NCBI GenBank assembly: GCA_030837345.1
Contig: JAUPKQ010000018.1
Coordinates: 1-43,184 of the forward strand
DNA: 43,184 nucleotides
DNA from: Actinomycetota bacterium
GTDB lineage: Bacteria; Actinomycetota; Actinomycetes; Actinomycetales; Kineosporiaceae
Direction: 5' to 3'
Shown: positions 11,351 to 43,184 of the stretch, in pieces
Position numbering within the stretch: the first letter of the stretch is position 1
How the letters are laid out: the number at the start of each line of letters is the position of its first letter
Translations under genes and position numbers: made by a program
The notes under the pieces: generated by a model
Databases searched by the model: none
Told to the model about the DNA's origin: nothing
Seen by the model: only the letters and a program-made list of their open reading frames with translations

Positions 11351-13381
11351 TCAGACGGACCAGAGGAAGACGTTCCGGTCCCCGCCCCCGGCGAGGAGGG
11401 TGCCGTCCGGGCTCCAGGCGAGGCTCCAGAGGTCCTGACCGCCGGTGGTGATCGTGGTGAGCAGGCCGCCGGAGGCGACGTCCCAGATCCGGGCCCGGTC
11501 CTCGAGCCCGATCGTGGCGAGCCGGGTGCCGTCGGGGCTGAACACGACGGATTCGGCCTGGTTCTCATGTCCGGTCATCGTGTGCCGGAGCCGGCCGGTG
11601 CCGACGTCCCACACCCGGACGGCGCCGTCCCACCCTCCGGCGGCGATCGCCGTCCCGTCGGGGCTGAAGGCGAGCGTACGGACGCCGCCGCCCGGCACGG
11701 TCAGCGTGGTGGTGGTGGCCCCGGTGACGGTGTTCCAGATCCTGATCTGCGGGTCGATGCCGCCGCCGGCGACCTGGAGCCCTCCGGCGTAGGTGCCCGG
11801 CCGGAAGGCGACCCGGAAGACGCTCCCGGCCGGCCCCTTCAAGGTCTGCCGCACCCGTCTGCTCCGAAGGTCCCAGATGCGCACGGTTCGGCCGGCCCCG
11901 CCGCTGGCGAGCACGGTGCCGTCCGGGCTGTAGGCGATGTCCTCGACCTCGCCCACCACCTTGGAGCCCCCGGTGCGGCCCTGGACGAACGTCAGGAGGG
12001 CTCCGGTCGCCAGGTCCCAGATCTCGATCTTCTCGACCGAGGCCAGACCCGTCGCGATCCTCGTGCCGCTCGGGTCGAGGGTGAAGGACCAGAACCCGAT
12101 CGTGGAGGTCGCGAGCCCCATCACCCGGGACCCGTCCGCCACGGTGTGCACGGTGAGCACCCGGGTCGACTCCAGCACGGCGATCCGCTTGCCGTCCGGG
12201 GTGAACCGCACCCTGGAGGCGGGTTCGGCGTTGGCCGTCGGCCAGCTGTAGGTCGCCCGCGTGATGGTCCGGGAGACGCCGGACGGGGTCGGGGAGGCCG
12301 TCGGGCGCCGGGAGCCGGGGGCGAGCCCCACGGCGTGGTCGGCGGAGTCCCTCCCCCTGCCGGACACCGTGCTCACCACGCCTCCCGCGACGGCTGCGAC
12401 CGCGACCGCCGAGCCCGCGATCATCAGGTTCCGGCGGGAGATCCTGCGTTTCCCGGTCCTCCCAGCCTGCGCCGCGAAGTCCGGATCGGTGAAGGGGCTC
12501 TCCTCACCCGGCAGGGCCATGGGTGTCAGAGGAAGGCCGAGGGTCCTCTCGACGTTCTGCAGCGCCCGGCCGAAGGCGAGCGCCGAATCGGGACGCCGCG
12601 CCGGGTCCTTCGCGAGCGCGCCCTCCAGGACCTGGGCGAGGGAGTCCGGGACACCCGACGGCCGCAGGTCCGGCGGCGGTTGTGTGACGATCCGGACCAT
12701 CAGGGCGACGACGTTGCCTCCTCCTCGTTCGGAGGAACCGGGCTCGGGATCGAAGGGGGCACGCCCGGTCAGAGCCGCCCACAAGGTGGCACTCAGGGCG
12801 TAGACGTCCGAGGCGACGGACGGCGAGCAGTCGGAGAAGAGTTCCGGGGCGCCGTAGGACGGCGTGAGCGCCGAGGTCGTCGTCGTCCCGAAGGAGTGGG
12901 TGACGTCGATCGCGATGCCGAAGTCGGCGAGCATCGGCTCCCCGAAGTCCGACAGCAGGACGTTGCCGGGTTTGATGTCCCGGTGGAGGACCCCGGCGAG
13001 GTGCGCGACGTGCAACGCGGCCGAGAGCTTGATCCCGGTGCGGACGACGGAGGCCCAGGGCATCGGCCCGTTCCTCGCCAGCTCGCTCGACAGCGAGCCC
13101 CGGGGGACGTACGCCATCACCAGGTAGGGACGCCCGGAGGCCGCGACCCCGGCCCCGTGGAGCTCGACGATGTTGGGGTGTCCCGACAAGGAGCCGAGAA
13201 TCCGGCATTCGCGGTCGAAACGGCGCTTCGTCGCTTCGTCCTCGACGCGGCCGTCGAGCATCTTGACGGCGACCTCACGGTCGAAGGCGGGCTGCCGGCC
13301 GCGGAAGACCCGGCCGTACCCGCCGACGCCGATCTGGCTGACGTCGACGATCCCGGGGACGGGTGATTCGAGTGCCGTCAC
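11351..13381 (-). CDS. Membrane-bound Ser/Thr protein kinase with C-terminal WD40 propeller
   Basis: A 676-residue Hanks-type kinase. The kinase domain (about 15-275) is complete: glycine loop GVGGYGRV, VAVK Lys40, Glu58 in RECRIL, HRDIKPGN (Asp135, Asn140), DFG at 153-155, APE at 178-180. A juxtamembrane KRRISRRN is followed by one transmembrane segment (about 318-340) and a Thr/Ser/Pro linker. The outer part has seven repeats with the F-SPDGT--A--G and -IWD- signatures of WD40 blades, so it probably forms one complete propeller outside the cell. Many bacterial kinases carry PASTA or PQQ repeats there instead. The ligand is unknown. GTG start with GGAGGG just upstream. It stands alone between the sugar operon terminator and rdgB. 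Confidence 0.93.
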   Translation of the reverse strand: MTALESPVPGIVDVSQIGVGGYGRVFRGRQPAFDREVAVKMLDGRVEDEATKRRFDRECRILGSLSGHPNIVELHGAGVAASGRPYLVMAYVPRGSLSSELARNGPMPWASVVRTGIKLSAALHVAHLAGVLHRDIKPGNVLLSDFGEPMLADFGIAIDVTHSFGTTTTSALTPSYGAPELFSDCSPSVASDVYALSATLWAALTGRAPFDPEPGSSERGGGNVVALMVRIVTQPPPDLRPSGVPDSLAQVLEGALAKDPARRPDSALAFGRALQNVERTLGLPLTPMALPGEESPFTDPDFAAQAGRTGKRRISRRNLMIAGSAVAVAAVAGGVVSTVSGRGRDSADHAVGLAPGSRRPTASPTPSGVSRTITRATYSWPTANAEPASRVRFTPDGKRIAVLESTRVLTVHTVADGSRVMGLATSTIGFWSFTLDPSGTRIATGLASVEKIEIWDLATGALLTFVQGRTGGSKVVGEVEDIAYSPDGTVLASGGAGRTVRIWDLRSRRVRQTLKGPAGSVFRVAFRPGTYAGGLQVAGGGIDPQIRIWNTVTGATTTTLTVPGGGVRTLAFSPDGTAIAAGGWDGAVRVWDVGTGRLRHTMTGHENQAESVVFSPDGTRLATIGLEDRARIWDVASGGLLTTITTGGQDLWSLAWSPDGTLLAGGGDRNVFLWSV

Positions 13382-23547: not shown

Positions 23548-26500
23548 CTACGGCCGGGCGGTCGTCCCCCCGAGCAGGGCGGAAACCACCGCCCGGTCGT
23601 AGGCCGTCATCGCCTGGATCACCAGGACGGCCGCGACCTCGACGGCGTCGGCGAGCACGACGTCCGCGGAGGTGGCGGCGAGAACGAGCGTCCCCCGCCG
23701 CTGAGGGTCCCCGGGCAGGGGCACGGCGATCCAGGACGACGCCGAGGTCAGTTCCGTGAACAACGACTGCGGCACGGTGACCGACGCGCCGTTGACCGGC
23801 CGGTCCAGGCCGAGCAGTTCCCGGGCCGCGGGATCGGGGACGATCTCGGTCCGGACGAGCCCGCCCGGCTCCTCCACGGCGAGCAGGTGGCAGGAGCCGT
23901 CCGGTTCCCCGGTGAGCAGCCAGGCGTGGTCGCAGGGGACGGCGGTCCGTGCCGACGTGAGCAGGCTCGCGAGGACGCCGTCCGGTTCCAGGGCCGACGC
24001 CGTCTCCGCGAGGGCGCGGCGGAGCCGTTCGGCGAGGTCACGTTGCTGCCGCACGGACCGGACCGCGAACTCCGACTGGACCGACCGGGCCGTGTCGAAC
24101 GAGACGGCGAAGTGGTCCGCCAGGATGCGCAACAACCCGACGTCGCCGGTGTCGAAGATCCCCTCGGTCACGGGTTTGTCGAGGTGGACGACGCCGAGCA
24201 GGCGGCCCTCGTGCTCCAGGGGAACGACGACGACCGAACGCACCCCAGGCAGAAGGGTCTCCCGCGACCCCGGGGCGATTCCCTCCCCCACCCGGCTGAC
24301 GACGAGCGGCTCCCGGGTGATCCGGACCCGGTCGACGAGGCTGGCGACGTGTCCGCCGGGGTCGTCGACGTCCTCTCCCGCCGCGTTCCGCCCGAGGACC
24401 GGCACGAGGTCTCCGAAGGAGTCCGGGCAGCCGGGGAGGAAGAGGAAGGCCCTGTCTGCCCCGAGGAGCCGGAGCGTCTCATCGAGCACGAGGCGCGACA
24501 GGAGCGCGGGGTCGATGACCTCCGTGACGGCGGTCATCACCTCGAGCAAGGCGTCCAGCCGTTCCCCGCACGGCAGGTCGTCGAGGACCGGTGGCGCGCC
24601 CGTCCGGCCGGGCGCTCCTGCCGGTCCCGGGGCGGTCGTCGTCCCGGGCGCCGGGGCGGGCGGGACACTCACCCGGGAGCGGCCCTTGCGGCTGAGGATC
24701 CCGAACTCCTTCATCACCCAGGAGACGCGGTGGTTCCACCCCGCCTCCTCGGCGATTCCGAGCGCCAGGTGGGCCTGCCGCCGTGCCTCCGACGAGGCGC
24801 CGATCGCGGCCGAGGCGCGTGCCCGCACGCGAGCCACCTCGTACGCGAGGAGCGGAGCGTCGGGGACCAGGGCGAGAGGGACGTCGCCGAGCAGGTCCAG
24901 GGCCTGCCCGGGCCGGTTCTCCAGGACGGCGAGGTCGGCCCGCGCGACGCTCTCCCACGCCCGCAGCCGTGGACGCCGGGCCGCGGGGCGCAGGGCCTGG
25001 ATCGCCAGGCGCGCGGTGGCCAGCCGTTCCGGGAGTTCCCCGGGGGCGGCGGCCCGGCACTGTGCGAGCCGTCCCATCGCGATCCGGAACAGGATGTTCC
25101 GCTGCTGCCGGACCACGATCCTCATCGGGACGCCCAGTTCCTCAAGCTCCAGGACGGCGCGGTCGAACCGCTCGCCGGTCTCCTGCTGCTCGACGAGCAC
25201 GGTCAACTGGGTGAGAGCGGTGATGAGCCGGTAGCCGAAGCTCGGCAGGCCGTCCATCCCCCGCTCCAGAAGGCGGAGGGCGTCCATGGCGTCGGACGGG
25301 CGGCCCTCCATCGCGGCGACGATCGCCGGGCCCGAGATCAGGACCGACGGCTCGCCCGGTCGCAGCGTCGCCCGGTCGCCCGCGACGGCCAGCCACCGGG
25401 CGGCCTCCGCGGTCCGCCCCTCGAAGGCGCTCTCCAGCAGGAACGCCCCGGTGGCCTCGTTGAAGGCACCGGTGTCGAGCCACCGTCCCTGCCGCTCGAT
25501 CGACTCCCGCCAGTCCGCCCCGTCGTCGGCGTAGGAGAGGCAGGCGGCGGCACCGCGGTAGTGCGCGATGAGGGCCGCGACGTCGGGGCGGGCCGTCGAC
25601 GGGTCCGCCGCGGCCCGCGCGAAGATCCGGCGTCCGAGCCGGCGGAGCCCGACCTGGTACGCGATGTAGCCGTAGCCGGCCTGGCTGCGCGCGTACTGTT
25701 CCCCGGGCCCGGCCTGGACGGCCCAGAACAGCGCCCGCAGCAGGTGCAGGATGGCTCGCTCCGGCCGGATGCTCAAGATCCCGACGTATCCACCGGTTCC
25801 GTGCAGCCTGGCGAGGAGTTCGCACCGGCGTCGGGCGTCACCCGTCCGGCGCGGCCACCCGATCGCCTCCGTCACCCGCGAGGCGAGGAACATCACCGCC
25901 GTCGTCAGCACCCGTCCGGCCGCCGAGCGGGGCAGCGGGGCCGACAGTTCCGCAAGACCTCGTTCACAGGCGAGAAGGGCCTCGTCCCCCTGCCAGGTCG
26001 AGCGGTACACCTCGACGAGCAGCACGTAGATCCGTGCCCGGACGAACGGGTCCTCGGTCCGGGTGACGGCGGTCTCCAGCACCGTGACGGCCCGGGCGAA
26101 ATCGCCGTCCTCACGCAGGGCGGTACCCAGCGTCAGGAGGAACTCCGCGGTCTCCCGCTCACCGCCGTACTCGGCCGCGTGTTCGAGGAAGGTGACGGCC
26201 GACGCCGGAGCGTGCTCGGCCAGGGCCTGCTCCCCGGCACGCCAGCAGGCCTCGAACACGGCGTCCGGGGTGCTCGACGGCTCACCGGCGAGATAGTGGT
26301 GCGCGACCGCGTACACCTGCTCGGGGTCCGGGCCCGGTGAGGGCACCCCGGCCCCGGCCCCGGTCGCCCGGCCCGGCGCCGAGCGTCCGTCGAGGACCTC
26401 GGCGATGCGCTGGTGGAGCCGGCGTGACGCCCCCACGTCCAGATCGTCCTGGAGGACCTCCCTCACCTCGTCGTGCAGGAAGACGTACCCGCCGTCGTCC

Positions 26501-28500
26501 CAGGGCTCGACGAGCCCCGCGGACACCGCCTGGAGCACGGCGTCGACGACCTCGCCGGAGGACCGCTGGCGGACAGCGGCCACCAGTTCGGGATGGAACC
26601 GGCTCCCGATGGCGGCCGCGGTGACGAGCACGTCGCGCACCTCGGGCTGGAGCGTCCCGATCCTCGTCAGGATCAGGCTGAGGGCGTCCTTGGGCAGTTC
26701 GAGGCGGTCGAGCCCCACGTCGTCCAGCTCCCAGGCGCCCCACGCCGGGTGGAGCAGCCCGTCGTCCACGATCGCCCGCAGGTATTCCTGCACCATGAAG
26801 GGGTTGCCCCCGGTACGCGTCGTCAGCATGCGGGCGAGGTCACGACCGGCCCTCATCCCGGGCAGGAACGTCGTCACGAGGTCGACGACACCGTTCTCGT
26901 CCAGCGGCTCCAGCACGATGTCGACCGCGGCGACCGTGGAGAGCGCGGTCAGCGCCCCCGACGCGACGGGTCCGAGGCCGTCGGCCCGGACCGTGCCGAG
27001 GACCATCAGGGGCACTCTGTCCAACTGGACGGCGAGCCGCTCCAGCACGCTCGCCGTCGCCTGGTCGATCCACTCCAGGTTGTCGATCAGCAGGACGAAA
27101 CCGCCGAGGGCCCGGGCCAGATCGGTGAAGAAGCCCGCGACGGCGACGACGAACTGGTCCTGGCCGCCCACGGCCTCGGGTGTCTCCAGCAGTTCGGCGA
27201 GCCGCGGCGTCAAGGTTCCGAGCAGGCCGGCGGCCGGTCCGGCGGCGGTCCGGACCGCGTCGCGCAGCCGAGCGCGTTCGGCCGGCGGCCGCTGGTCGAT
27301 CTCCCGCAGGAAGGCGTCCGTCCCCGAACGCAGCGGCGCCATCGGGACCGGGTCGTCCTCCTCGCCGAGGCCCCGCAGGACGGGGACGCCGAGGCCTTCC
27401 ACCCGGTAGCCGAACTCGTCGACGAGCCTGCTCTTGCCGACGCCGGCGGCGCCCCGGACGACGCAGGCCTGCCCGCGGCCCTCCGCCACCTGCTGCCAGC
27501 AGGTGAGCAACCGGGCCAGTTCCGTGTCCCGGGCCGCGAGGGGACGGCGGGCCGGCGCCGCGACGCTCCGTCCGCCGGGCGCGGGGAGGTCCGCGTCGGG
27601 GTCCGCCTCAAGGACGCACAGGTCGTCGATGAGGTGCTCGCCGTCGGCGTACCGGTCCTCGGGTTCCTTCGCGAGAAGGGTCGCCACCACCGTCGCCAGG
27701 CCCCGAGGGGTGTCGGGGAGGAGCTCGGTCAGGTCGGGGGGCGGAAGCACGGCGTGCATCCGGAGCAGGTCGCCGACGTCGTCGGACAGGAAGGGGGGCC
27801 GTCCGGTGAGGCACTCGAACATCACCACGCCCAGCGAGTACAGGTCGGACCGGTGGTCGACAGGATGGTCGACGGGGTGATCGACGGCACTGCTCTGCTC
27901 GGGTGAGGCGTAGACGAAGGCGTCGACGGACACCGGGGCGGCCGAGCCGAAGCCGACGAGCCGGGCGGTTCCGTCAGGGGCGATCAGGATGGTGCCGGGC
28001 CTGATGTCACGGTGGACGATGCCGTGGCGGTGGACCGCGACGAGAGCCCCCAGGACGTCGAGGGCCAGCCGGGACACCCGTCGTGGTGACAACGGCCCGG
28101 TCGCGATCACGTGGCTGAGAGGCTCGCCCTCGACGAGGTCCATGATCATATAGGGGCGGCCGTCGAGCTCTCCGACCTCGTGGATCGCCGGGAGGTCCGG
28201 ATGGTCGACCGCCGCCAGGAGGACCGCCTCGCGCCGGAAGCCCGCCACCACGCGCCCCGCGCCGTCCGGGACGCGGTCGAGGATCTTCATCGCGTACTCG
28301 CCGGAGCCCAGCCCGGTGGTCGCGCCGCGCCGCACCCGGTAGACGGAGCTGCCGACGTCCTGCCGCAGTTCACGGACGAGGGTGAACCCCGGCGGCACCA
28401 CGCCCGAGATGTCACTCCCACCCGCTTGCTCCGCCCGCCGTGGCATCGGAAGACCGGAGCGGGAACCCGGACGGGCCGCGGGGTGGGGAGGAGAGCTCAC
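23548..28500 (-). CDS. 1650-residue pseudokinase / AAA-ATPase / GAF signalling protein
   Basis: Large cytoplasmic regulator with the layout of bacterial kinase-ATPase-GAF proteins (PknK/HstK-like). Residues 38-300 are a Hanks kinase fold that looks dead: the glycine loop is reduced to DVGSS, the catalytic loop reads HRDIRPGT with Thr170 for Asn, and DFG has become GFG (Gly183 for the metal-binding Asp). Lys72 and HRD remain. An AAA/STAND-type ATPase follows, with Walker A GAAGVGKS (350-357) and Walker B VLLIDNLEWID (about 469-479). Then comes a long helical, TPR-like region (about 700-1280), a GAF domain (about 1315-1460) and a second GAF-like part to the end. No histidine kinase or output domain is seen. 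It lies 70 bp downstream of the GGDEF gene on the same strand. Start: GTG 28500 has a weak ribosome site; ATG 28446 is possible. Confidence 0.88.
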   Translation of the reverse strand: MSSPPHPAARPGSRSGLPMPRRAEQAGGSDISGVVPPGFTLVRELRQDVGSSVYRVRRGATTGLGSGEYAMKILDRVPDGAGRVVAGFRREAVLLAAVDHPDLPAIHEVGELDGRPYMIMDLVEGEPLSHVIATGPLSPRRVSRLALDVLGALVAVHRHGIVHRDIRPGTILIAPDGTARLVGFGSAAPVSVDAFVYASPEQSSAVDHPVDHPVDHRSDLYSLGVVMFECLTGRPPFLSDDVGDLLRMHAVLPPPDLTELLPDTPRGLATVVATLLAKEPEDRYADGEHLIDDLCVLEADPDADLPAPGGRSVAAPARRPLAARDTELARLLTCWQQVAEGRGQACVVRGAAGVGKSRLVDEFGYRVEGLGVPVLRGLGEEDDPVPMAPLRSGTDAFLREIDQRPPAERARLRDAVRTAAGPAAGLLGTLTPRLAELLETPEAVGGQDQFVVAVAGFFTDLARALGGFVLLIDNLEWIDQATASVLERLAVQLDRVPLMVLGTVRADGLGPVASGALTALSTVAAVDIVLEPLDENGVVDLVTTFLPGMRAGRDLARMLTTRTGGNPFMVQEYLRAIVDDGLLHPAWGAWELDDVGLDRLELPKDALSLILTRIGTLQPEVRDVLVTAAAIGSRFHPELVAAVRQRSSGEVVDAVLQAVSAGLVEPWDDGGYVFLHDEVREVLQDDLDVGASRRLHQRIAEVLDGRSAPGRATGAGAGVPSPGPDPEQVYAVAHHYLAGEPSSTPDAVFEACWRAGEQALAEHAPASAVTFLEHAAEYGGERETAEFLLTLGTALREDGDFARAVTVLETAVTRTEDPFVRARIYVLLVEVYRSTWQGDEALLACERGLAELSAPLPRSAAGRVLTTAVMFLASRVTEAIGWPRRTGDARRRCELLARLHGTGGYVGILSIRPERAILHLLRALFWAVQAGPGEQYARSQAGYGYIAYQVGLRRLGRRIFARAAADPSTARPDVAALIAHYRGAAACLSYADDGADWRESIERQGRWLDTGAFNEATGAFLLESAFEGRTAEAARWLAVAGDRATLRPGEPSVLISGPAIVAAMEGRPSDAMDALRLLERGMDGLPSFGYRLITALTQLTVLVEQQETGERFDRAVLELEELGVPMRIVVRQQRNILFRIAMGRLAQCRAAAPGELPERLATARLAIQALRPAARRPRLRAWESVARADLAVLENRPGQALDLLGDVPLALVPDAPLLAYEVARVRARASAAIGASSEARRQAHLALGIAEEAGWNHRVSWVMKEFGILSRKGRSRVSVPPAPAPGTTTAPGPAGAPGRTGAPPVLDDLPCGERLDALLEVMTAVTEVIDPALLSRLVLDETLRLLGADRAFLFLPGCPDSFGDLVPVLGRNAAGEDVDDPGGHVASLVDRVRITREPLVVSRVGEGIAPGSRETLLPGVRSVVVVPLEHEGRLLGVVHLDKPVTEGIFDTGDVGLLRILADHFAVSFDTARSVQSEFAVRSVRQQRDLAERLRRALAETASALEPDGVLASLLTSARTAVPCDHAWLLTGEPDGSCHLLAVEEPGGLVRTEIVPDPAARELLGLDRPVNGASVTVPQSLFTELTSASSWIAVPLPGDPQRRGTLVLAATSADVVLADAVEVAAVLVIQAMTAYDRAVVSALLGGTTARP

Positions 28501-28570
28501 GAGGGAGGTGTCGACCGTTCCGGCGCAGGGCTTGACGGCGCCGGGCGTGACGGCGCCGGGCAGCGCGCCC

Positions 28571-30289
28571 TCACCAGACGACGGAGCGGTTCCGGCCGTC
28601 GTGCTTGGCGGCGTAGAGCGCCGCGTCCGCCCGGTCGAGCACGACGTCGAGCTCGGCGACGGGACCGCTGGCGACGCCGGCGCTCACCGTCACCTCCAGG
28701 CCCTCGGCGAGATCGCGCCACGGATGGGCCCGGACGCGGCAGCAGACGCGCGCCGCGGCGTCCGCCCCCATCCGGCCCGTTCCGCCCGGCAGAGCGATCA
28801 GGAACTCCTCCCCGCCCCACCGGGCGACGACGTCGAGGGTCCGCACCGATCGCGTCAGCAGGTCGGCGAGCGCCTTGAGAACGGCGTCCCCGACGCCGTG
28901 CCCGAAACGGTCGTTCACCGCCTTGAAGTGGTCGACGTCGATGAGGACGAGGCTGACCTCGCCCCCGGGGAGGAGATCGCCGCAGAACCGGGTGAGGGCA
29001 CGGCGGTTGGCGAGACCGGTCAGGGGGTCCTGTTCGGCGGAGGCCATGAGCGCCTCCGTCCGTTCCTCAAGGTCGCGTCTCTCCTCCTCGGCACCCGCCC
29101 GGGACCAGACCTGCTCCATGAAAGCGGGGACGTGCCGCCGGTGCCGCGCCCACAGGAGGTCGGCGAGGCGACGGGCGTCGTCCAGGGCGCCCTGGACATC
29201 ACCTGCCCGCTGGCGGGCGAGGGAACGCAACCTCAAGGCGGTGAACAGCTCGGCGGACGGCGGGGTCCCGGGAGTCCCCGCCTCCAGCAACGCCACGGCC
29301 CGGTCGAGGTCGGCCACGGCGTCGTCGCTCCCGAGTTCGGCCAGGCACCGGCCGACGGACAGGTGCACGGCCCCGCGAACGGACGGCGCGGCGTCGAGAT
29401 CCGCCGCCGCCCGCAGGACACCGGGCAGCAGCGACCACGCCCTCGCCGGGCGGCCACGGGCGCACAGGACGTCGGCGAGCAGCCGCGGCCCGTGGAGGCG
29501 GTGGAAGAGGTCGGAGCCCGGCCCGGTGGACAACCGGTGGGCCGCCCGCTCGGCCCGGTCGAGCAGCCGGGCCCGCTCCGGGTCCTCCCAGTCGAGCTCG
29601 ACGGCCTGGGCGAGCAGCAGCTCGGCCGTGGCCGTCAGGGCGCCCGGCACGCAACTGTCGTGCTCGGTCTGCGCGTGCAGCGCCTCAAGAGCGAGTTCGT
29701 AGAAGTGCAGCGCCCTCGGATAGTCGATCAGCTGCCGGCACAGTCCCCCGAGGCGGACGGCGAGATGCGCCTCCGCGGTGAGGTCACGTTCGGCGTCTGG
29801 GCGCTCCCGGACGGCTCCGCCGAGGGCGACGAGGGCCCGGACCGCGGTGTCGAGGGCGACGGCGACGCGGCCCTCGCCGGCTGCCGTGTCCGCCGCCGCC
29901 GCGTAGTTCGTCGCGGCGGCGAGCGGCTCCCCGAGCTGCTCGTAGATCTCGGCGGCCAGCACGGCGTCCGTCACGGGCATCTCACCGCGGCGGTCCGGTT
30001 CCCCGGGCGCCACGGACTCCGCCGACGAGCCGTCAGAGGGTACGGCGAGGGGCAGGATCCCCGCCCGAGCGCTGAGGAGGCGCTGGCGGTCGTACTCCCC
30101 CGCGACCGGCAGGAGTCGCTCGACGGCCCGGAGCCACCGCCGCACGGGCACCACGCTTCCCTCTCCCGGAGCCACGGCGAGCAACCGGTCGACGGAAGCA
30201 CTCACCCGCTCCGCGGCGACCAGATCGATCCGCGCAGGGACAGCGATGCATCCGATCCGGGCGACTGATAGGCAGTCCTCCATATACAC
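28571..30289 (-). CDS. Diguanylate cyclase with TPR-like N-terminal region
   Basis: Makes cyclic di-GMP from two GTP. 572 residues. The first 390 are helical with TPR-like segments (LAAEIYEQLGEPLAAATNYA, ALHFYELALEALHAQTEH, SVGRCLAELGSDDAVADLDR). A short coiled linker leads into the GGDEF domain (about 410-572): DPLTGLANRRALTRF, VLIDVDHFKAVNDRFGHGVGD, an intact active site GGEEF (about 492), and an RxxD product-inhibition site (RTLD) five residues before it. All catalytic elements are present. No membrane segment, so it should be cytoplasmic. The ATG pair at 30289/30283 has no clear ribosome site. First gene of a probable operon with the pseudokinase, whose GAF and ATPase domains may control it. 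Confidence 0.92.
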   Translation of the reverse strand: MYMEDCLSVARIGCIAVPARIDLVAAERVSASVDRLLAVAPGEGSVVPVRRWLRAVERLLPVAGEYDRQRLLSARAGILPLAVPSDGSSAESVAPGEPDRRGEMPVTDAVLAAEIYEQLGEPLAAATNYAAAADTAAGEGRVAVALDTAVRALVALGGAVRERPDAERDLTAEAHLAVRLGGLCRQLIDYPRALHFYELALEALHAQTEHDSCVPGALTATAELLLAQAVELDWEDPERARLLDRAERAAHRLSTGPGSDLFHRLHGPRLLADVLCARGRPARAWSLLPGVLRAAADLDAAPSVRGAVHLSVGRCLAELGSDDAVADLDRAVALLEAGTPGTPPSAELFTALRLRSLARQRAGDVQGALDDARRLADLLWARHRRHVPAFMEQVWSRAGAEEERRDLEERTEALMASAEQDPLTGLANRRALTRFCGDLLPGGEVSLVLIDVDHFKAVNDRFGHGVGDAVLKALADLLTRSVRTLDVVARWGGEEFLIALPGGTGRMGADAAARVCCRVRAHPWRDLAEGLEVTVSAGVASGPVAELDVVLDRADAALYAAKHDGRNRSVVW

Positions 30290-40785: not shown

Positions 40786-42165
40786 ATGAGCCCGCTGGAT
40801 CAGGACCCATCATTCATCACCAGTCATCCCCATGGCATCATGTCGCACGGTGACGGAATGGCGCCTTTGTCGCGCAACACGGACGCTGGATTCGACCCCG
40901 AGCTCGAAGGCAGCAGTTACCAGACCGCGCCGATCACGTCGCTCGCGATCGCCCGGTGGACCTGGTCCGCGATCGGCGCGGTCGTCGGGGTGATGCTGGG
41001 TTTCCTGAGTTCTCTCGGCGGCGGCTTCCAGGCGACCGCGACCCTCCAGGTCGTCGGCGACATGAACGCGGACGACGCGTCGTCGATCGGCAAGACCCTC
41101 GAGGCGCTCGCCAGTTCCGACGCGGTGCTCCGGATCGCCGTCGTCTCGCTGCGCTCCGGTGGCAACCGGGCCGCGGAATACGCGGCGGCGGGCGGGAAAC
41201 TCCCGGCACAGGGGCCCAACAAGGACGAGACGGACGCCAAGGACTACCTGAGCGCCGGGCTCAAGGCGCTCTACACCGACGGCACCAAACTCGTCGAGAT
41301 CAACGTCACCCGGGCCGAGGGCAAAGGCCAGATCGCCGGTATCGAGGCGAACGCGATCGCCAACGCCGTCCAGACCAAGATCCAGCAGGACGCGGACGAA
41401 CACATCAAGAAACTCGAGGCCGATTTCGACAAGGCCTACGGAACCCGCGGCGGCGGAGCGCTCGTCACCGCGACGGACCCTGAGATCGACAGCGTCCGGA
41501 AGGCCCTCGGCGACCGCAAGGCGCAACTGCTCTTCGTGGACAAACAGTCGGTCCAGGTGATCCCCGCCGTCCACGCCTTCCCCGCCGGGATGTCGCAGAC
41601 CGTCTCGGCGCTGATGGGTGCCGCGGGCGGAGCGTTCCTCGGGGCGCTGGCGGCCGTCGCCGCCGGGGCCGGGCGCCACAAACCCCACAGTCCCCGCGAA
41701 TTGATGTCCCTGGCTCCGGACCTCACCGTCCGCACCACCGTCCAGGCGGGTGAGCTCGCCGGGCGCGTGATGGAGACCGACCGTCGGTCCGTCGCCGTGC
41801 TCGCCATGCCCGACACACGCTTCGCGGCGACCCAGCTCGGCATGGCGATCGCCCACCATCTGCGCACGCACGGCGCGACCGTCGCCCTCGTCGACCGGGT
41901 GTCGGAGTTCTCGCCCAACAGCTCCGCCGAGGACCGCCTGTGGGCGCTGCGTCGTGACGTGCGGCGGAACATCCCGGCGAACTTCTCCGCCGACATGCTC
42001 GTCGTCGTCTGCGGCGCCGACGAGGAGGCCCTCAGCCTGATCGCCGGTCAGTCCGACCTGTTGGTCGCCGTCGTCGCCAAGCAACGGCGCACCCTCCTGG
42101 CCGACATCCGTCGCACCGTCGACGCCGTCCGCATCTCCGAGCCGGTCGTGGTGCTCGCCCGATGA
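40786..42165 (+). CDS. Wzz/BY-kinase-like membrane protein with degenerate nucleotide site
   Basis: 459 residues with the layout of an actinobacterial chain-length regulator fused to a tyrosine-kinase-like domain. Membrane segments lie at about 57-78 (AIGAVVGVMLGFLSSLGGGF) and 268-295 (SALMGAAGGAFLGALAAVAA). Between them is an outer helical region with EANAIANAVQTKIQQDADEH, as in Wzz proteins. The C-terminal cytosolic part has the BY-kinase/ParA order (VAVLAMPDTRFAATQLGMAI, then HGATVALVDRV, then DMLVVVCGADEEALSLIAGQ), but the Walker A GxxGxGKT is missing, and no Tyr cluster ends the chain. It probably controls polymer length or export without kinase activity. The next ATG overlaps its stop by 4 nt (ATGA). 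Confidence 0.82.
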   Translation: MSPLDQDPSFITSHPHGIMSHGDGMAPLSRNTDAGFDPELEGSSYQTAPITSLAIARWTWSAIGAVVGVMLGFLSSLGGGFQATATLQVVGDMNADDASSIGKTLEALASSDAVLRIAVVSLRSGGNRAAEYAAAGGKLPAQGPNKDETDAKDYLSAGLKALYTDGTKLVEINVTRAEGKGQIAGIEANAIANAVQTKIQQDADEHIKKLEADFDKAYGTRGGGALVTATDPEIDSVRKALGDRKAQLLFVDKQSVQVIPAVHAFPAGMSQTVSALMGAAGGAFLGALAAVAAGAGRHKPHSPRELMSLAPDLTVRTTVQAGELAGRVMETDRRSVAVLAMPDTRFAATQLGMAIAHHLRTHGATVALVDRVSEFSPNSSAEDRLWALRRDVRRNIPANFSADMLVVVCGADEEALSLIAGQSDLLVAVVAKQRRTLLADIRRTVDAVRISEPVVVLAR

Positions 42166-43184
42166 ACGGCGGGCCCCGTCAGCCGGGCCACGGCCGGGAC
42201 CGGGACCGGTGGGATGACGGTTCGGGTGAGGGTGGGCGTGCGCCGAGCCCCTTCGACGAGCACGGGCGGCTCGTCGGGGGACGTCGGCGCACCGGCAAGA
42301 CGGGAGCTCTCCCCCTCGGGATGACCCCCTCCGGGTCGATCGCGATGAACTGGCAGCATTCGGGGTCGATCCCCGTCAACCAGCCCAAGGGCGTCACCGG
42401 CGGGCTCACCCTGACCGGTGGCATCTCGCTCGGGTTGCGTCGCAAACGCCCACCGCGGCTGGCGTTCGACCCGGTGGTCCGGGGCCGGGGTCTCGCCCGG
42501 CTGAGCCGCCACCCGGTGCCGACCACCCAGAGCGAACTCCAGCGGGCCGTCGTCCGCTGGGTCGTCACGCTCTGGATCATGATCGTGCTGCTCCAGAGGT
42601 TCCAGCTCCCCGGTCAGCCGATTCCCCTCATCCTGCCGCTGACCCTCGCCTGGTGCCTGTACGGGCTGGTCCGGGGCGTCCTGGAACTCGACAGCCACCG
42701 TTTCGCCGGGTGGATGGCCATCACGGGCCTCAGCGCGGTGTTCATCCCCCTCCAATCCGTCTTCGTCAACAAGGTCTTCACGAGCCCGATGTCGTGGGGC
42801 CTGCTCCTGACGATCTGGTTCATGTTCGTCTTCCGGTTGGTGGACCGCCGCCGTTCGACCTTCGTGATGGCACTGCGCGGCATCGTCAAGGTCTGCATGT
42901 GGTTCGCCCTCCTCGTGATCGTGATGTTCGCCAGCCAGCTGGTGTTCCCCTACCAGGACTGGTTCGCCATGGTCTTCCCGGAGAACATCCGGCTGACTGA
43001 CTTCACGATCGCCTACCCGATCTCGTACGGCTCCCCGTGGTACAAGGCGAACGGCTGGATCGGGCTCGAACCCTCCGTCGTCTCCTTCCAGCTCGGGATG
43101 GGCCTCGTCTCGGCGGTCCTCCTGCGCTCGACGATGCCGGTGATCCTCCTGATCGGCGTCGCGATCCTCTGCACGACCGCCGGC
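42162..43184 (+). CDS. Wzy / O-antigen-ligase-like membrane protein, partial
   Basis: 341 codons are open to the end of the window with no stop. The first 120 residues are soluble and basic (GGPRQPGHGRDRDRWDDGSG, then SGSIAMNWQHSGSIPVNQPK with a repeated SGSI). At least seven hydrophobic segments follow (VVTLWIMIVLLQRF, LILPLTLAWCLYGLV, WGLLLTIWFMFVFRLV, VCMWFALLVIVMFAS, LGMGLVSAVLL, VILLIGVAIL). The loop SPWYKANGWIGLEPSVVSFQ resembles the periplasmic loop of O-antigen polymerases and ligases, in which an LEPS-type sequence precedes a helix. Together with the Wzz-like gene whose stop it overlaps, it is probably the polymerase of the locus. The C-terminus is outside the window. Confidence 0.75.
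   Translation, partial: MNGGPRQPGHGRDRDRWDDGSGEGGRAPSPFDEHGRLVGGRRRTGKTGALPLGMTPSGSIAMNWQHSGSIPVNQPKGVTGGLTLTGGISLGLRRKRPPRLAFDPVVRGRGLARLSRHPVPTTQSELQRAVVRWVVTLWIMIVLLQRFQLPGQPIPLILPLTLAWCLYGLVRGVLELDSHRFAGWMAITGLSAVFIPLQSVFVNKVFTSPMSWGLLLTIWFMFVFRLVDRRRSTFVMALRGIVKVCMWFALLVIVMFASQLVFPYQDWFAMVFPENIRLTDFTIAYPISYGSPWYKANGWIGLEPSVVSFQLGMGLVSAVLLRSTMPVILLIGVAILCTTAG

Follow-up and report, generated by a model that had tools for sequence, protein, structure and literature searches.

The window analysed here, the whole 43,184-nt stretch of DNA, carries two neighbouring genes on the minus strand, one for a 1650-residue protein with a degenerate kinase domain (23548..28500) and, just upstream of it, one for a 572-residue diguanylate cyclase (28571..30289), which raises the question of what such a kinase chain does beside such an enzyme. 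The longer protein comprises a kinase domain (residues 38-300, 27601..28389), an AAA_16 or STAND-like ATPase (27001..27540) in which the Walker A motif GAAGVGKS and a Walker-B-like LLIDNLEWID are kept, a TPR-like region recognized from weak Pfam TPR matches and alignment (residues 761-1310, 24571..26220), and two GAF domains: GAF1 (residues 1334-1467, 24100..24501) is matched by Pfam, while GAF2 (residues about 1495-1638, 23587..24018) emerges from alignment with relatives and not from Pfam. The Pfam scores are 86 bits for Pkinase, 77 bits for AAA_16, and 53 bits for GAF, and the ATPase and GAF scaffold described in an earlier note on this DNA is borne out. No Pfam match to a histidine kinase or HATPase domain was found at the C-terminus. 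The 1650-codon frame is open throughout, with normal and uniform GC3, and stops 12 residues past GAF2, where relatives run on through a linker helix into a GGDEF domain. A convergent signal peptidase gene on the opposite strand ends 28 bp from this stop codon, so there is no room for GGDEF remnants.

The kinase domain has kept its fold but lost catalytic sites. Its AlphaFold model is confident (pLDDT 89.6) and shows a full kinase fold, for which the best PDB match in a fold search is mycobacterial PknB (TM about 0.8). Lys72 (in AMKIL), Glu91, and the HRD motif (163-165) are kept. The DFG Asp is lost (GFG at residues 183-185, D183G, 27946..27954), as are the catalytic-loop Asn (HRDIRPGT at residues 163-170, N170T, 27991..28014) and two glycines of the glycine loop (residues 46-51, G46R and G48D, 28348..28365), which reads LRQDVGSSVY as against LGRGAxxxVY in relatives; the Gly-Thr ahead of the P+1 loop is also missing. 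The reading of the domain as a pseudokinase with GFG, Thr for Asn, and a reduced glycine loop, but with Lys and HRD retained, thus held on every point. Pseudokinases have been defined by the loss of at least one of the β3 Lys, the HRD Asp, and the DFG Asp (PMC12599244), and the window kinase, with Gly183 for the DFG Asp, falls within that definition; the product of 23548-28500 is predicted from these motifs to be a Ser/Thr pseudokinase, kinase-dead. In the alignment with relatives, 8 of the 47 strictly invariant kinase columns are lost, half of them nucleotide or Mg sites (G46, G48, N170, D183), and structural residues are kept; nucleotide and metal sites are enriched among the losses, with a hypergeometric p between about 0.005 and 0.05 according to which set is used. 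In the same alignment, the ATPase, winged-helix, and TPR parts retain almost every invariant residue. GAF1 has also drifted, with 32 of 44 conserved residues kept. An in-frame 12-bp repeat (VDHP copies) is inserted after the PEQ motif of the kinase domain (27852..27887), and most of the differences between its copies are synonymous changes in third codon positions.

Homologs were gathered from the genome of the window, from 12 further genomes in its family, and from named Actinoplanes genomes; a wider search ran a 601-residue TPR-region query against 99 genomes from the order and 297 from the class, where members were found only in the same family and one Actinoplanes-like genus. Plasmids yielded distant kinase-ATPase proteins only. 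All 22 full homologs are single chains with the order kinase-ATPase-TPR-GAF-GAF-GGDEF, and in all of them HRD, Asn, and D(F/L)G are intact (DLG in two). Long matches of the window protein to the fetched homologs are about 36-41% identical, and it shares their domain order and full-length similarity from the kinase through the ATPase and TPR-like region to the two GAF domains; it lacks the C-terminal GGDEF that every homolog has. Relatives had been expected to carry an intact kinase and often a C-terminal histidine kinase: the first part stands, but the second does not, as all 22 end in GGDEF and a histidine kinase as the usual C-terminus of close relatives is ruled out. Whether GFG is shared with homologs had been left to alignment, and the change proved private to the window lineage, the DFG Asp being kept in 22/22. 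The link to c-di-GMP is firmer than first claimed, since each homolog bears its own GGDEF; this domain, together with the intact kinase motifs, makes c-di-GMP the output of the family. The genome of the window encodes two further paralogs, both kinase-ATPase-GAF-GGDEF proteins and 27-37% identical to the window protein, on contigs C72 (L084:4247-9823) and C5 (L100:2410-7377); the C5 paralog is more distant but alike in general layout. The C72 kinase has the sequence HRDLTPDN, is likewise without the Gly-Thr ahead of its P+1 loop, and may be partly impaired.

Separate trees were built for the kinase domain and for the remainder of the chain (AAA to GAF). Both place the window protein inside the fusions, as sister to two paralogs from one genus in the family and surrounded by chains that bear a cyclase, so the ancestor had both enzymes and both losses fall on the window protein's own branch. 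Comparison at the sequence level shows the window protein as a paralog of the fusion family minus its two enzymatic outputs, with kinase catalysis apparently lost by substitutions at the nucleotide and Mg sites and the C-terminal cyclase domain apparently lost cleanly. Read off the branch lengths, the kinase branch from the shared node is about 1.5 times as long as the sister branches, and the rest of the chain shows no lengthening, which indicates that constraint was relaxed on the kinase alone. Apart from the drift of GAF1, the pattern resembles relaxed selection confined to the kinase rather than gene decay.

The neighboring cyclase has a different history. Its GGDEF domain (residues 419-568, 28586..29035; 122 bits) is the sole Pfam match, and the predicted structure has a helical-repeat array over the N-terminal two thirds, followed by a long helix and the GGDEF domain, the last part being backed by structure matches. 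The GGEEF motif (residues 492-496, 28802-28816), the metal-site residues, and the RxxD I-site (RTLD, residues 483-486, 28832-28843) are all kept. An active-looking cyclase upstream on the same strand, as described from the letters alone, is confirmed, and on motif criteria the product of 28571-30289 is a diguanylate cyclase predicted to be active. Full-length orthologs occur in six genomes from four other genera of the family, with the main copies at 42-50% identity, and most of these regions share the window's genes for nicotinate phosphoribosyltransferase, ClpS, DUF2017, and MurI. In the four ortholog genomes read, the next gene after the cyclase always lies on the same strand and encodes an N-terminal motif rich in tryptophan and a membrane part resembling RDD, so that we take it to be RDD-type; in the window genome this gene has weak matches only. 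In one related genus the gene for the TPR-cyclase is tandemly duplicated (L075:359-4064).

It might be supposed that the cyclase is the detached C-terminus of a fusion. This is ruled out by the GGDEF tree, in which the cyclase orthologs and the GGDEF domains from the fusions form separate groups, each with 98/98 support. Because its GGDEF belongs to its own ortholog group and the kinase gene is absent beside the orthologs (0/6 genomes), the cyclase is an old, independent enzyme behind which the kinase gene was placed secondarily. The fusion homologs of the window protein are located elsewhere, each with its own cyclase domain. The pairing is private to the window genome, the one genome of its genus compared; a conserved operon is rejected, as no relative shows the pairing, and the earlier view of the two genes as an established pair fails with it. 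The window genome has about 33 GGDEF matches, and with some 4,100 genes estimated from 4.35 Mb the chance of adjacency to a GGDEF gene is about 1.6%, a figure that applies to a case picked because of its adjacency. The gap between the two genes is 70 nt (28501..28570), so that co-transcription is possible; a motif and folding search of the gap found no terminator or promoter, and its folding is not unusual. The gap also holds a 15-bp tandem repeat of 2.7 copies (window 28521-28561).

The reading preferred here, tentatively and short of being probable, takes what is left of the chain to be a scaffold that responds to nucleotides and ligands and influences c-di-GMP synthesis in trans; its nearest candidate partner would be the TPR-diguanylate cyclase encoded upstream in the same orientation. 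The ATP or ADP state of the ATPase and the ligands of the GAF domains would set the conformation or oligomeric state of the scaffold, and contacts that it makes, perhaps to the helical repeats of the cyclase, would shift cyclase dimerization. The scaffold would be an added modulator and not an essential subunit, because the cyclase is older and self-sufficient. Plausible support comes from the c-di-GMP output across the family and from the intact fusions that directly adjoin GGDEF-EAL genes in three Actinoplanes-type genomes. The position of the gene on the same strand, 70 nt below the cyclase and with no terminator-like site between, plausibly points the same way, as may the weak matches here to the RDD-type gene that usually stands behind the cyclase elsewhere. 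Against acting in trans, the pairing occurs in one genome and the orthologs in four genera stand without such a protein; moreover, with the linker helix between GAF2 and GGDEF gone, the native coupling route is lost. It is more doubtful whether the double enzyme loss and the relocation behind an unrelated cyclase together amount to an evolutionary change in which c-di-GMP synthesis, once controlled in cis, came under the trans control of an allosteric scaffold.

The scaffold could also be functional with other partners, forming mixed oligomers with the C72 and C5 paralogs and dampening or redirecting them, so that its adjacency to the cyclase is incidental. Dominant-negative action is a common fate of enzyme-dead paralogs, the genome supplies two kinase-GGDEF partners, and the adjacency is not conserved. 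Set against these points, paralogs that are just 27-37% identical make hetero-oligomers uncertain, and the gene did take its place directly behind a cyclase; this alternative is possible but rather doubtful. Somewhat less likely still is a functionless paralog headed for loss, its kinase dead, its cyclase domain deleted, and its gene moved by rearrangement. The loss of two activities, the restriction to a single genome, and the drift of GAF1 would all fit such decay, but 1650 codons remain open with uniform GC3, the ATPase, winged-helix, and TPR invariants are kept, the non-kinase branch is not lengthened, and the copies of the repeat in the kinase domain differ mainly at synonymous sites. As the losses in the kinase cluster in catalytic positions and evolution of the other domains is normal, a working scaffold is favored over a decaying gene.

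A co-evolved two-gene system, in which the scaffold governs the adjoining polysaccharide locus by way of the cyclase, is improbable. The same strand and short gap of the two genes would suit it, as would the stretch at about 30.4-40.6 kb, which is largely polysaccharide-related (glycosyltransferases, a sugar transferase, and a dTDP-sugar enzyme). However, the pairing is not conserved beyond the window genome, the orthologs of the cyclase adjoin RDD, ROK, or FAD-oxidase genes and not polysaccharide genes, and most of the polysaccharide genes here lie on the other strand, past a FAD oxidoreductase. Pfam finds neither PilZ nor any other c-di-GMP receptor domain in these genes, and the proposal that the locus next door is the natural target finds no support. 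At the end of the polysaccharide locus are two ORFs without any Pfam match (window 40786-43184). An assembly artefact, in which a misjoin near 23.55 kb removed the C-terminal GGDEF, is very improbable: the genome is a draft of 269 contigs and the stop codon lies close to the convergent gene, but the stop comes right after GAF2 within one open frame, and the substitutions in the kinase do not depend on a join.

Several known systems resemble parts of the window protein. A chain with kinase, TPR, and GGDEF has been known since 2005 from an 1826-residue Clostridium thermocellum protein (PMC1262709); that fusion and the fusion homologs found here share with the window protein an N-terminal kinase, central repeats, a sensor part, and the link to a cyclase, but in the window protein the kinase is predicted to be dead and GGDEF is missing, and the adjoining cyclase is of another GGDEF lineage. 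The CP1 group consists of pseudokinases coupled to a predicted ATPase and in many cases also to GAF-type domains, about 40% being degenerate, and almost nothing is known of its function (O'Boyle et al. 2025, PMC12599244). In layout alone the window protein is CP1-like, with a pseudokinase, a predicted ATPase, GAF-type sensors, and no membrane anchor; the criterion for CP1 is linkage of the kinase to a COG3899 ATPase, and the ATPase here is seen as AAA_16 in Pfam. CP1 has been described mainly from cyanobacteria and proteobacteria, whereas the window protein is actinobacterial and its relatives carry GGDEF. The DLHK pseudokinase (HRDLRPAS and GFG in Table 1 of PMC12599244) is much like the window kinase in its degenerate catalytic loop and GFG, but the listed protein is without the ATP-binding Lys that the window protein keeps as Lys72, and DLHK is linked to helicase-like domains. 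The cyanobacterial dual kinases (kinase-GAF-histidine kinase, PMC1262709) also combine kinase and GAF in one large chain; they have a histidine kinase, while the window protein and its nearest relatives have none. The TOMM kinase/cyclase fusion model TIGR03903 matches the kinase and ATPase region at 183 bits, far below its cut-off of 706 bits, and the window protein is without the cyclase part.

A literature search found no Ser/Thr pseudokinases acting on c-di-GMP. The new element is the combination of a pseudokinase-ATPase layout with a family-wide cyclase output that has been lost, and perhaps functionally replaced by an unrelated cyclase gene. Catalogues of bacterial Ser/Thr pseudokinases exist, but the function is known for few of them (PMC12599244). 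For the window pseudokinase, intact single-chain relatives reveal the ancestral output, c-di-GMP, so the role of a scaffold after double enzyme loss can be tested with two genes and the genome's own paralogs that bear a cyclase. The actinobacterial family of kinase-STAND-GAF-GGDEF sensors also ties sensors of the Ser/Thr-kinase type to c-di-GMP. Elsewhere in the window, 11351-13381 encodes another Ser/Thr kinase, with C-terminal WD40 repeats. In Actinoplanes subtropicus (L010:5975-14274) the gene for an intact kinase-GGDEF fusion overlaps the GAF-GGDEF-EAL gene upstream of it, and a response regulator with an HD domain comes next on the opposite strand, making a dense c-di-GMP locus; at L101:8342-10744 and L102:8063-10390, a divergent GGDEF-EAL gene lies beside the fusion.
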